From contig NZ_CP044016.1 in NCBI RefSeq assembly GCF_004337365.2, positions 682,001 to 746,000 on the forward strand: DNA of 64,000 nucleotides, given 5' to 3'. Positions 41,712 through 46,462 of this stretch are shown piece after piece; within the stretch, counting starts at the first letter, position 1; every line of letters begins with the position of its first letter. The notes beneath the pieces are model-generated. The model was given only the letters and a program-made list of their open reading frames with translations. It was not told the origin of the DNA and did no database searches. This DNA comes from Rhizosphaericola mali (GTDB lineage Bacteria; Bacteroidota; Bacteroidia; Chitinophagales; Chitinophagaceae). The position numbers were made by a program, and so were the translations under genes.

Positions 41712-41742
41712 TTTGGAAAATTTAATTCATTCCTTATCTTTG
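41712..41742 (+). promoter_or_regulatory. Canonical Bacteroidota promoter for tRNA-Leu
   Basis: A -33 TTTG at 41712-41715, a 19-nt spacer and a -7 TATCTTTG at 41735-41742, 34 nt before the tRNA. Confidence 0.85.
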
Positions 41743-41776: not shown

Positions 41777-41858
41777 GCGGATGTGGCGAAACTGGCAGAC
41801 GCACTAGACTTAGGATCTAGCGCCGCAAGGCATGTGGGTTCGATTCCCTCCATCCGCA
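41777..41858 (+). tRNA. tRNA-Leu (anticodon UAG)
   Basis: 82 nt. The acceptor stem GCGGATG / CATCCGC is perfect, with discriminator A at 41858. Anticodon stem CTAGA / TCTAG encloses loop CTTAGGA with anticodon TAG at 41811-41813, reading CUA and probably other CUN codons. A long variable arm (GCGCCGCAAGGCAT) and the T-loop segment GGTTCGATTCC mark a class II tRNA. CCA is not encoded. It is followed by its own terminator and then trigger factor. Confidence 0.96.
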
Positions 41859-41863
41859 CTGTA

Positions 41864-41895
41864 TTCCTCCTTACCCTAAATAAGGGGGATTTTTA
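41864..41895 (+). terminator. Terminator after tRNA-Leu
   Basis: Arms TCCTCCTTA / TAAGGGGGA (one T-G pair) with a 7-nt loop, followed by TTTTTATTTTT. Confidence 0.75.
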
Positions 41896-41944: not shown

Positions 41945-43324
41945 ATGGCAACGATCACTCGTGAAAATATCGGTAAGTTAAATGATAAATTGGTGGTTAA
42001 GTTGGCGAAGGACGATTACTTCCCTCAATTTGAAAAAAGCCTAAAAACTTACGCTAAAAGTGCAAATATTCCTGGTTTCCGTAAGGGAATGGTACCTACT
42101 GGATTGGTTAAAAAAATGTACGGTCAAGGAATTTTAACAGAAGAATTATTCAAATCTGTAGATAAAGAACTTTCTCAATACCTTCAGGACGAAAAAGTAA
42201 ATATTTTAGTTCAACCTATTCCTTTCGAAGAGGAAAACAATGAATTGAATGTTGACGTAAATGCTCCTAAAGAATACACTTTCACATTTGAAGTTGGTTT
42301 GGAACCAGAAGTAAATGTAGATGTGAAAAAAATCAATGTAACTCGTTACAAAATTGATGTAACTGATGAAATGTTGAACGAAGAAATCAACAAATTGGAA
42401 TTACGTCATGGTAAATATTCCGAACCAGAAACGATCTCTAACGACGATGATGTTTTGAATGTAGATTTGAAAGAATCTGACAAAGACGGTAATCTTGTTG
42501 AGGGTGGTATCCAAAAAGGAACCTCTGTTTTGTTGAAAAATCTTACTGCGGCTACTCGTAAAAAAGTAGAAGGTCAAAAGAAAGATTTCAAATTGGTTAT
42601 CCAATTAAGCAAAGCTTTTGAAGATAAAGATTTAGAAAATATAATCGCCCAATTAGGTTTGGATACCGAAGATAAAAATTCAGCTAAGAAATATTTCGAA
42701 ATGACTTTGTTGAAATTGGGAAGCATCGAGCGTCCTGAAATGAACGAAGAATTCTTCGAGAAAGTTTTTCCTGGAAAAGAAATTAAAACTGAAGAAGCTT
42801 TCAAAACTGCATTAAAAGAAGAGTTATCTTCTTATTTCAATGCACAAGCTAGTGGTCAAATCCATGATCAAATTTTCCATCATTTGACCGATCATACCAA
42901 ATTAGAATTCCCTCAAGAATTTTTGAAAAGATGGTTGATCGCTAACAATAAAGGTGAAAAATCTGCAGAAGAAGTTGAAAAAGAATTACCAGCATTTGAA
43001 AATCAATTACAATGGAGTATTATCTCTAACAAATTGAGTCAAGAAAATGAGGTAAAAGTGGAACCAAATGATTTAAAAGATTTTGCTCGTCAACAATTGA
43101 TGGGTTACTTAGGTGGTCAAATGGATCTTTCTGGTGATACTTCTTGGATCAACGATTATACTGATAGAATGATGAAAGATCAAAAATTTATCGAACAAGC
43201 TTATGGTCAAGTTATGGCTACTAAATTATTCGAAAAATTAGAAGGTCAAGTTACTGCAAAAGAAGAAGCTATCTCTGAAGAAGCTTTCTCTAAAATGTTG
43301 CAAGAACACCAACATCATCATTAA
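41945..43324 (+). CDS. tig: Trigger factor, ribosome-associated chaperone
   Basis: 459 residues. The ribosome-binding N-domain has the signature IPGFRKGMVPTGLVKKMYG near residue 40 (GFRKG loop). Residues 145-240 are a divergent PPIase-like region, and the rest is the helical C-domain, ending in a His-rich HQHHH. It shields nascent chains at the ribosome exit tunnel. The PPIase region lacks the easily recognised FKBP residues of E. coli Tig, as is usual in Bacteroidota. A strong terminator follows. Confidence 0.95.
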   Translation: MATITRENIGKLNDKLVVKLAKDDYFPQFEKSLKTYAKSANIPGFRKGMVPTGLVKKMYGQGILTEELFKSVDKELSQYLQDEKVNILVQPIPFEEENNELNVDVNAPKEYTFTFEVGLEPEVNVDVKKINVTRYKIDVTDEMLNEEINKLELRHGKYSEPETISNDDDVLNVDLKESDKDGNLVEGGIQKGTSVLLKNLTAATRKKVEGQKKDFKLVIQLSKAFEDKDLENIIAQLGLDTEDKNSAKKYFEMTLLKLGSIERPEMNEEFFEKVFPGKEIKTEEAFKTALKEELSSYFNAQASGQIHDQIFHHLTDHTKLEFPQEFLKRWLIANNKGEKSAEEVEKELPAFENQLQWSIISNKLSQENEVKVEPNDLKDFARQQLMGYLGGQMDLSGDTSWINDYTDRMMKDQKFIEQAYGQVMATKLFEKLEGQVTAKEEAISEEAFSKMLQEHQHHH

Positions 43325-43343
43325 TATTCATAAATGTTATTAT

Positions 43344-43377
43344 AAATCCCTTACAATGATCTTGTAAGGGATTTTTT
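43344..43377 (+). terminator. Terminator after trigger factor gene
   Basis: Perfect 13-bp arms AAATCCCTTACAA / TTGTAAGGGATTT, 5-nt loop, followed by TTT. Confidence 0.9.
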
Positions 43378-43430
43378 AATTTATTTTTAAAATAAATGAT
43401 TAACCTATGTTAATTTTAACATTTCTCTAC

Positions 43431-43438
43431 TATCTTTG
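43431..43438 (+). promoter_or_regulatory. -7 element of a short transcription unit
   Basis: TATCTTTG, an exact match, with no coding frame directly after it; a terminator-like hairpin follows about 55 nt later. A good TTTG -33 is not seen. Confidence 0.5.
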
Positions 43439-43441
43439 TTA

Positions 43442-43530
43442 GAGTAGTATTTTTTACTTTTCCAAAGGCAGGGTGTTACTTCTAAATTTTTTATAAGATC
43501 CGAAAGCAATTTGTGGCTTTCGGATCTTAT
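43442..43530 (+). ncRNA. Candidate small RNA of about 90 nt
   Basis: The segment starts just after a -7 element and ends in a perfect 13-bp hairpin (AAGATCCGAAAGC at 43495-43507, GCTTTCGGATCTT at 43516-43528, 8-nt loop) followed by ATTTATTTTT. The downstream helicase gene has its own promoter (43510-43539), and the upstream tig gene has its own terminator. The unit therefore looks self-contained. No known RNA family was recognised; it could also be a leader or attenuator of the helicase gene. Confidence 0.4.
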
Positions 43531-43539
43531 TTATTTTTG
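43510..43539 (+). promoter_or_regulatory. Promoter of the Dna2-like gene overlapping the upstream hairpin
   Basis: A -33 TTTG at 43510-43513 (in the hairpin loop), 18-nt spacer and -7 TATTTTTG at 43532-43539, 16 nt before the ATG at 43556. Confidence 0.55.
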
Positions 43540-43555
43540 ATATTTGCCAAAGAAG

Positions 43556-46462
43556 ATGAGACATATTTTTAATGCAATCCTTTTAGAAAAATCAGCTACG
43601 CAAATTACTGTTCGCTTTACGGAGGATAACAAGATTTTTACAAATACAATTGATTTTCCTGCAGAATTTATCTCATCCATCAGTTTGGCAGAGATAGGAG
43701 AGAAAGTGCATCTTTTGCATTGCTTGGGAGAAAATGAGGATTTATTTGCAAAATATGTAATCATTGAACCTGATTTTTTATTGGATATTAGTTCGATTGC
43801 AGAATGTATTCATGAGTATGGCGCCAGCCCTTTTTTTTATTTGTATAATCGAGCAAAAAAACGTGCAAATACACGTCCAATTCTATTAGGAAATGCAGCA
43901 AATTTCTTTTTAGATGAAATTATTCATGCCTCTTCCATTGAAAACATTTCTTATAATAATCTTTTAAGTGCATTTTTCAAGCGGTATGCTGTGGATTTGA
44001 GTGCTTGCAAAGATTTACAAGATAAAACACAAGAAATTACGTTTTTTCAAGATTTGAAATTGCATTTCGAGCATTTATATAGTTTGGTTACGGATATTTT
44101 TCCACGTTTCAATATTAATCGTCACGCCGCCATTTTGGAGCCATCCTTTCTTAGTCCGCAATTAGGTTTGCAAGGTCGTTTGGATCTTTTGCTATTGTCC
44201 GATGATCGAAATGTAATTATTGAGTTGAAATCTGGCAAAGCACCATTTCCCGAAAATGATTACCATCTAATAGGCGTTAATCATCAAGCACAATCTGCAT
44301 TATATCAAGCGATGGTGCAATTGGTTTTGAATATAGATGGAACAAAACTGGATACGTATATCTGTTATTCTAGGTATGGCGAAAAAAAAGGTTTGTTGCG
44401 GAAAAATAATGCTAGCGATAGTTTTATCGCAAAGGTGTTGGATATCAGAAATCAGATTGTCTTAGTGGATAAATATTTTGGGCAAAATAAAATCCTTCCT
44501 GAGCGATATTTTGGCGGGATTAATGGCGCTAATATGATTGAAGATGTATATTTGGATACGCGTTTTATTTCCAATTATATTTTGCCTCCGATTGAAAAAA
44601 TTGGTAAAATTTATACATCACTTAATCCTCTTGAAAAAGCATATTATACGGCATTTTACAAATTTATCGTTCGGGAAATTCGCGCTTGCAAATTACCCTC
44701 TCAAGAAATATTTGCGCATGCGCAATCTAGTTTGTGGTTACAAAATTTAGAGGAAAAGAAAGCGGATGGTCGCATTCTAATTAATTTACAATTATTGTCG
44801 ATTGAAATCCTAGATAATGGTGCAGAGATTTTACGTTTTCAATTATTAGAAAATTTGGAAAAAGCGGATTTCCGTATTGGAGATATTGTCGTTTTGTACC
44901 AATACAATTTGGATACAGATTGTTCTATTTGCCAACAAGTTATTAAAGGGACTCTTTTGAAATGGCAGGGTGTAAATATTGATTTTCTTATTCGAAATAA
45001 ACAAAGCGAATTGGCATTACCAATTAATGCTTTGTTTGCTGCTGAGCATGATTACTTAGATAGTAATAATGGATTTATGTTTCAATCCTTGACAGAATTT
45101 TTTCAATTGTCAAAGGAACGTCGTCGCTGGATTTTTCAACCTAATATTGGGATAAATGAATGCAAAAAATTAACACATTATACCAGTAATCCATTGGTAG
45201 ATAATGTGTTATTACAAGCTAAGCAGGCCAAAGAACTGTTTCTAATTGTTGGCCCACCAGGTACTGGGAAGACGTCCATTGCTTTACATAATTTGGTAAA
45301 AGAAATCTTTTTGGATAGTAGAAAAGATATTTTACTTGTGGCATATACCAATAAAGCGGTAGATGAAATATGTCGAGCTATTGCTTCGATAACTAATATT
45401 GATTTTATACGATTGGGTACGAGTATTTCTTGTGCGACAGAATTTCGTTCGCATTTATTAGAAAATAAAATTAGTCAATGTGTCAATCGTATTGGGGTGC
45501 AAAATGTACTTGCCAATTGTCGGATATACGTTGGGACGTTAGCTGCCATTCAGAGTAAAAGTGAGATTTTTAAAATCAAACATTTCGATATAGCCATAGT
45601 GGATGAAGCTTCGCAAATATTGGAACCACATATATTGAGTTTGTTTGCAGCAGAAGATTTTGAAGGTAAAGCTGCTATTGATAAATTTATTTTGATTGGA
45701 GATCATAAGCAGTTGCCAGCTGTTGTCGCGCAGGATTGTAGTGAACCCTTGGAAAATTTACTTATTGAAAATGGTTGGGCGAGTTTAACGCAATCTTATT
45801 TTGAACGGATATATCGTCAATTTTATGGAAATCAGCAGATAATTGGTGAGTTGTCGATGCAAGGTCGTATGCATGAAGAAATAGCATCCCTTGCCAATCA
45901 ACTTTTTTACCAAAATCAATTGCAATGTGTTCCGCTTGTCCACCAAAAAGGTACTTTAAATTATTTGAAAATTCCGGATAATGATCTCGCGCAGATAATT
46001 GCAAATAAGCGATTGCATTTCTTCCCTTATTCTTCGGTAGAAAAAGATGCAGTAGGTTTGATTGCAAATATTTGTGCTACAATTTTTGAATTATATCAGT
46101 TAAATCAGTGGACATTTTCTCCGAAAAAAACATTGGGAATTATTGCTCCTTACAAAGATTTGATTGCGGCAATTCGTAAAGAATTACATCAATTGGGGAT
46201 TGCAGATTTGAATGAAATTGATATAGATACGGTAGAACGTTATCAAGGAGCGCAAAAAGATATCATCTTATTTGCTTTCGGTATTGAAAATGAAAAACAA
46301 CTTCTACAACAGACGAGTAATTGTATCGAAATGGATGGAAATCTTATAGACCGCAAACTAAATGTTGCCATTACCCGCGCACGCAAACAATTATTTCTCA
46401 TGGGAAATGAACGATTTATTGGACAAAATGATATTTATGTTAGGTTGTTGGAATTGATTTAG
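43556..46462 (+). CDS. Dna2-like protein: RecB-type nuclease domain plus SF1 helicase
   Basis: 968 residues from the ATG at 43556; the frame opens at a TTG four codons earlier. Near residue 208 the run GRLDLLLL ... NVIIELKSGKAP ... NHQAQSALYQAMV gives the D, E-x-K and Q-Y residues of a PD-(D/E)XK (RecB/Cas4) nuclease. Helicase motifs follow: LIVGPPGTGKTSIA near 565, AIVDEASQILEP near 680, LIGDHKQLPAVV near 713, DTVERYQGAQKDIILF and NVAITRARKQLFLMG. The order nuclease then UPF1-like helicase is that of Dna2. The cysteines flanking the nuclease do not form an obvious Fe-S set. A role in DNA end or flap processing is inferred. Confidence 0.85.
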   Translation: MRHIFNAILLEKSATQITVRFTEDNKIFTNTIDFPAEFISSISLAEIGEKVHLLHCLGENEDLFAKYVIIEPDFLLDISSIAECIHEYGASPFFYLYNRAKKRANTRPILLGNAANFFLDEIIHASSIENISYNNLLSAFFKRYAVDLSACKDLQDKTQEITFFQDLKLHFEHLYSLVTDIFPRFNINRHAAILEPSFLSPQLGLQGRLDLLLLSDDRNVIIELKSGKAPFPENDYHLIGVNHQAQSALYQAMVQLVLNIDGTKLDTYICYSRYGEKKGLLRKNNASDSFIAKVLDIRNQIVLVDKYFGQNKILPERYFGGINGANMIEDVYLDTRFISNYILPPIEKIGKIYTSLNPLEKAYYTAFYKFIVREIRACKLPSQEIFAHAQSSLWLQNLEEKKADGRILINLQLLSIEILDNGAEILRFQLLENLEKADFRIGDIVVLYQYNLDTDCSICQQVIKGTLLKWQGVNIDFLIRNKQSELALPINALFAAEHDYLDSNNGFMFQSLTEFFQLSKERRRWIFQPNIGINECKKLTHYTSNPLVDNVLLQAKQAKELFLIVGPPGTGKTSIALHNLVKEIFLDSRKDILLVAYTNKAVDEICRAIASITNIDFIRLGTSISCATEFRSHLLENKISQCVNRIGVQNVLANCRIYVGTLAAIQSKSEIFKIKHFDIAIVDEASQILEPHILSLFAAEDFEGKAAIDKFILIGDHKQLPAVVAQDCSEPLENLLIENGWASLTQSYFERIYRQFYGNQQIIGELSMQGRMHEEIASLANQLFYQNQLQCVPLVHQKGTLNYLKIPDNDLAQIIANKRLHFFPYSSVEKDAVGLIANICATIFELYQLNQWTFSPKKTLGIIAPYKDLIAAIRKELHQLGIADLNEIDIDTVERYQGAQKDIILFAFGIENEKQLLQQTSNCIEMDGNLIDRKLNVAITRARKQLFLMGNERFIGQNDIYVRLLELI

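Follow-up and report, generated by a model that had tools for sequence, protein, structure and literature searches.

The tig–helicase gap of Rhizosphaericola mali was analysed within a window of 64,000 nucleotides (contig NZ_CP044016.1, positions 682,001 to 746,000; coordinates below count from the first base of the window). For strain B3-10 of this species, a complete genome of 4,701,441 bp has been published, consisting of a chromosome of 4,671,108 bp and a plasmid of 30,333 bp (PMC10781739, in the excerpt used here). The parts of the gap and its two flanking genes lie on the forward strand. The upstream gene, tig, encodes trigger factor (41945–43324, an open reading frame with a Pfam Trigger_N match at E 1e-32). 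It is followed by its own intrinsic terminator (43344–43374), and the 13 base pairs attributed to it by an earlier, sequence-only reading of this DNA were recovered, together with a 5-nt loop and a T tail. Further downstream lies TATCTTTG (43431–43438), which resembles a -7 box and which we call P1, with a predicted start near 43443. The unstructured segment 43443–43492 would form the leader or body of a hypothetical small RNA, and contains most of a seven-codon GTG frame (VLLLNFL, 43473–43496 including the stop) that ends at the base of a terminator-like hairpin (43493–43530, tail TTATTTTTGA). A probable helicase promoter, P2 (TTTG-N18-TATTTTTG, 43510–43539, predicted start near 43544), overlaps this hairpin and is followed by the ATG of a Dna2-like helicase gene (43556–46462). 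Just 5' of the P1 box there is also an inverted repeat with 7-bp arms (ATGTTAA-TT-TTAACAT, 43407–43422), which could be an operator or a chance occurrence in A+T-rich DNA.

The Dna2-like protein combines a PD-(D/E)XK/Cas4-like nuclease part with AAA_11/AAA_12 helicase domains (Pfam). The nuclease scores at the Pfam cut-off and has a Cas4 match in PADLOC. Matches to the helicase at E 1e-50 or better were present in 5 of 147 sampled family genomes, R. mali's included. In PADLOC, the helicase part also matches MkoA of the Mokosh defence system (E 1e-42).

The second hairpin is larger than first described: a hairpin with a T-rich tail is indeed present, but it has 15 perfect Watson–Crick pairs at 43493–43530 rather than 13 at 43495–43530, with an 8-nt loop and seven T among the first eight tail bases. 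Perfect hairpins with a stem of at least 13 bp and a loop of 3–9 nt occur in the window as 20 readings at 9 places, while five dinucleotide shuffles of the window gave 0, 0, 1, 0 and 0 with such a stem, so the hairpin is real beyond chance. The segment 43445–43535 folds at -26.5 kcal/mol (z -4.7). This signal stems from the terminator, since the leader alone (43446–43492) has a z of +0.67. With its beyond-chance stem and T-rich tail on the transcribed strand, the hairpin has the sequence features of an intrinsic (Rho-independent) terminator, and we infer that it terminates transcription. It differs from the textbook arrangement in its position, 168 nt past the end of tig, behind tig's terminator and immediately ahead of the helicase start codon.

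The frequency of such placements was gauged in 864 kb of the R. mali genome, comprising the window and 40 further stretches (L099–L138), with genes taken as naive longest-ORF picks of at least 80 codons. At a minimum stem of 9 bp, 86 terminator-like hairpins are intergenic, a count that omits hairpins inside ORFs of at least 80 codons or not flanked by neighbours on both sides within the stretch. Fifty are the first within 100 nt 3' of a same-strand gene and 36 are not (these include two tRNA units and a 5S unit); hairpins away from gene ends are therefore not rare in R. mali. In 13 of the 36, among them the tig–helicase hairpin and the two tRNA units, TAnnTTTG lies 40–300 nt upstream in the same gap, so the box-then-hairpin arrangement is uncommon, not unique. 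The search for known RNA genes covered the window plus 7 of the 40 stretches with Rfam, and 8 of the 40 with ARAGORN. A nearby tRNA unit in the window is a clear promoter-to-terminator case, with TTTG-N19-TATCTTTG at 41735, the tRNA at 41777–41858 and a hairpin at 41865–41889. Three other hairpins off gene ends, L112:6138 (+), L124:18616 (+) and L125:8185 (-), have TAnnTTTG 64, 93 and 120 nt upstream, respectively, and no gene of at least 80 codons between box and hairpin (Rfam was run on L112 only). They are candidates for small RNAs or small genes like the tig–helicase gap. In addition, a 5S rRNA gene has two terminator-like hairpins in tandem downstream of it (L118:8224–8457), spaced 163 nt apart, the second with an 18-bp stem.

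The promoter calls rest on the sigma-A -7 consensus of Flavobacterium psychrophilum, TAnnTTTG, which lies at -12 to -5 (PMC9723704, in the excerpt used here); the P1 start is predicted by placing the box accordingly. Both elements named by the sequence-only reading were found in place: TATCTTTG as the -7 box at 43431–43438 and, as the predicted helicase promoter with its -33 element in the hairpin loop, the TTTG (43510–43513) paired with TATTTTTG (43532–43539), which overlaps the T tail. P1 has no TTG or TTTG 17–23 nt upstream, only TATG at 21 nt. In 464 kb of the genome, with genes picked in the same naive way, TAnnTTTG occurs at 171 intergenic sites, or 1.19 per kb of intergenic strand. Taken by itself the box is thus weak evidence, because about 0.14 would be expected in a gap of 118 nt at that density. 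Nor is TAYCTTTG significantly enriched in the whole window (9 versus an expected 6.5; a count of 9 is reached in 19 of 100 shuffles), and a scan of the window for E. coli-type promoters was uninformative (56 found versus 51.4 in shuffles).

The 464 gaps before sense genes, taken up to 300 nt from the gene and totalling 76 kb, contain TAnnTTTG 178 times versus 71.3 in shuffles (20 shuffles); the 374 gaps before antisense genes, 88 kb in all, contain it 84 times versus 81.3. Its density peaks sharply at 25–40 nt from the start codon (8.6 and 7.3 per kb), is 3.0 per kb at 20–25 nt and falls to 0.7–1.6 per kb beyond 100 nt; by implication, transcripts with a very short 5' leader are common in R. 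mali. The P2 box, 24 nt before the helicase ATG, is at the edge of this peak. The P1 box, at 125 nt, lies outside it, in a range where any excess of boxes over chance is modest at most: TAnCTTTG at 100–150 nt before a start codon occurs at about 0.3 per kb versus about 0.12 in shuffles, a difference based on 4 sites with P1 among them. On box counts by themselves P1 is favoured, since TATCTTTG is more over-represented within 300 nt before sense genes (12 versus 2.5 in shuffles, P1 counted in) than TATTTTTG (22 versus 13.8, P2 counted in). A TTTG 17–22 nt upstream accompanies 11 of 77 boxes before genes versus 6% of 516 coding boxes, and is weakly informative in this genome. Taking together its better box, its place outside the peak, the missing TTG/TTTG and the four-site excess at 100–150 nt, we put the odds that P1 is a transcription start at roughly even. 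From its spacing and position, P2 is the probable helicase promoter, and P1 may be weak or used only at times.

Searches for relatives of the gap gave no convincing homologue in 394 family genomes or in one sister genome. The gap sequence is single-copy in its own genome. The 394 genomes were drawn evenly from a larger group, with two candidates scored in each, and 26 passed E 0.01: R. mali itself and 25 others, whose matches are short (E 0.001–0.01) and taken for chance. Likewise, DNA searches of the own genome, the genus and the family returned, besides the query, 16–54-base matches taken for chance; both hairpins also match their own reverse complements in these searches. A plasmid search in distant mode (E up to 1) gave no match. 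Conservation of the hairpin or of the internal segment, on which the sequence-only reading had staked its proposal, was therefore not seen in this set, to which the single sister genome adds thin evidence. That reading had recognised no RNA family in the gap, and Rfam 15 agrees: at gathering score the whole window yields the tRNA at 41777–41858 alone. At E up to 5, the interval 43325–43600 has 18 matches, all below their gathering scores, with the top-scoring ones on the tig terminator and the best over the second hairpin (SpF36) at 20.6 bits versus the 48 needed. We discarded these matches, 8 of which belong to plant, animal or protist families.

The sister genus member (MAG bin_168; G001 and L061, apparently one record judging by their identical layout) has a tig 72% and a helicase 42% identical to those of R. 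mali. It was among the 11 relatives found in a contig search with the tig query; the same search with the helicase query found none in a set from which near records may be absent. Its gene order is tig, a DUF4870-like gene (L061:3495–3854, also L027:978–1337; PF09685 at 24.2 bits, just below the cut-off of 25) and the helicase gene. Between the DUF4870-like gene and the helicase there is no terminator-like hairpin (stem of at least 7 bp with a T tail). At E 0.001, a search of the R. mali genome for the DUF4870-like gene, run without a positive control, gave no match. The longest stretch that the R. mali gap shares with the sister is the 12-mer TAGTATTTTTTA, which covers the stop codon of the sister gene and window positions 43445–43456; a length of 12 or more is reached in 7 of 300 shuffles.

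This synteny raises the idea that the gap is the leftover of a lost gene. That is, the ancestor would have had tig, a DUF4870-like gene and the helicase, and deletion of the gene body would have left its promoter beside its 3' end. The sister gene sits at exactly the right place, R. mali appears to have no counterpart, and the shared 12-mer falls on the stop codon. Yet the 12-mer is of low complexity, the gap holds no trace of the DUF4870-like protein, the sister lacks a hairpin after the gene, the empty own-genome search had no positive control, and the gene is equally explicable as a gain in the sister. We consider this history improbable, and rejected a DUF4870 remnant in the gap, whose support is limited to that one 12-mer. 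A functional small RNA in its own right, some 95 nt long, starting at P1, ending at the hairpin and pairing with target mRNAs through its unstructured 5' part, is a less remote prospect, although still an unlikely one. The proposal of a self-contained unit of about 90 nt holds in so far as a start-like box precedes a real terminator behind that of tig, and intergenic sRNA candidates typically consist of such a predicted pair of box and terminator; conservation, as described above, did not bear it out. The tRNA unit has an identical layout and TAnCTTTG is in excess at P1's distance. Measured against the sRNAs in the excerpted text of PMC7366714, the gap has a 3' intrinsic terminator by sequence and a -7 box, but no TTG/TTTG 17–23 nt upstream of it, and its distance class is modestly enriched on 4 sites. 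Neither a homologue, nor a gathering-score Rfam match, nor structure outside the terminator was found. The same text offers a precedent in Bacteroides thetaiotaomicron, where 49 high-confidence intergenic sRNAs have a start and a terminator, 27 of them strain-specific and 22 present in two or more genera, and where several have extended unfolded regions (PMC7366714). The gap candidate shares the intergenic location, promoter-like start, terminal intrinsic terminator and scarce structure, but those sRNAs were observed as transcripts, with 22 of 49 shared between genera, whereas ours is known from its DNA alone. The ‘Indep’ transcripts of F. psychrophilum are also short and separate from annotated genes, and come from a phylum in which the TAnnTTTG box is used. 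According to the excerpt of PMC9723704, they have a median of 176 bp, 18 of 45 non-antisense ones are strongly structured, and among the non-antisense ones conservation tends to extend over the species and often over the genus. The candidate is less like these, which were seen as RNA, are longer and tend to be conserved, while it has neither detectable conservation nor structure apart from its terminator. Our literature search found no Rhizosphaericola RNA-seq paper and no Chitinophagaceae paper pairing a small regulatory RNA with a transcription start site.

Regulatory roles for the hairpin fare worse. In an attenuator, P1 would be the helicase promoter with a 113-nt leader, and a signal would allow read-through of the hairpin by RNA polymerase. 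Among boxes before genes TATCTTTG has the better support, the hairpin ends 25 nt before the helicase ATG and the GTG frame stops at its base. Against this, blocking the 5' arm of the terminator leaves a best fold of -7.6 versus -25.8 kcal/mol, so no competing antiterminator is predicted, and no fold of the growing transcript is better than -5.6 kcal/mol before the second arm emerges (43516). Moreover, the gap has no gathering-score Rfam match, the sister helicase gene is not preceded by a terminator-like hairpin, and P2 provides a direct start. The attenuator version of the sequence-only reading is thus highly improbable. Its notion that hairpin and helicase promoter are mutually exclusive structures needs more than bases shared between an RNA hairpin and a DNA promoter, which by themselves do not suffice for that. 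A leader-peptide attenuator was rejected: such systems likewise place a short frame and a terminator before a gene, but here there is the seven-codon frame only (in our judgement likely due to chance), with no antiterminator, no biosynthetic target gene and no conservation seen. Less probable still is a DNA operator in which the 15-bp inverted repeat binds a repressor of the helicase gene. The repeat does cover the -33 element of P2 together with most of its spacer, but a terminator needs just such a T tract immediately 3' of its stem, and the sequence occurs once in the genome. Least probable is a lineage-specific RNA switch, in which P2 would be occluded, and so shut, because P1 transcription ends on top of it, and read-through under stress would yield a longer helicase mRNA. 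The helicase at stake in such a switch is Cas4/Dna2-like, with a helicase part resembling MkoA of Mokosh.

The explanation we prefer, with some reserve, is that an intrinsic terminator shields the helicase promoter P2 from upstream transcription, possibly also ending a RNA of about 95 nt from the uncertain P1. The hairpin at 43493–43530 would halt transcription arriving from upstream, that is, tig read-through and any P1 starts, and the helicase would consequently be driven separately from P2, on an mRNA with a very short leader of about 12 nt. Any P1 RNA would be mostly unstructured and, as far as is testable, lineage-specific. The perfect 15-bp stem with its T-rich tail, the 36 of 86 hairpins away from gene ends, the second hairpin 163 nt after the first downstream of the 5S rRNA gene, and the position of P2 (TTTG at N18, box at the edge of the peak) all argue for this shielding role, and no tested alternative fold competes with the terminator. 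On the other side, the counts for TATCTTTG outdo those for TATTTTTG, which by itself favours P1, and the TTTG of P2 is weakly informative in R. mali. A second terminator is also not obviously needed, because tig already has a good one.

Altogether, the tig–helicase gap appears ordinary, of little significance by itself and at most a reasonable small-RNA candidate. Should transcription occur, the gap would add one further strain-specific intergenic RNA to those of Bacteroidota. For R. mali more broadly, the clustering of boxes 25–40 nt before start codons gives an empirical ranking of promoter calls.
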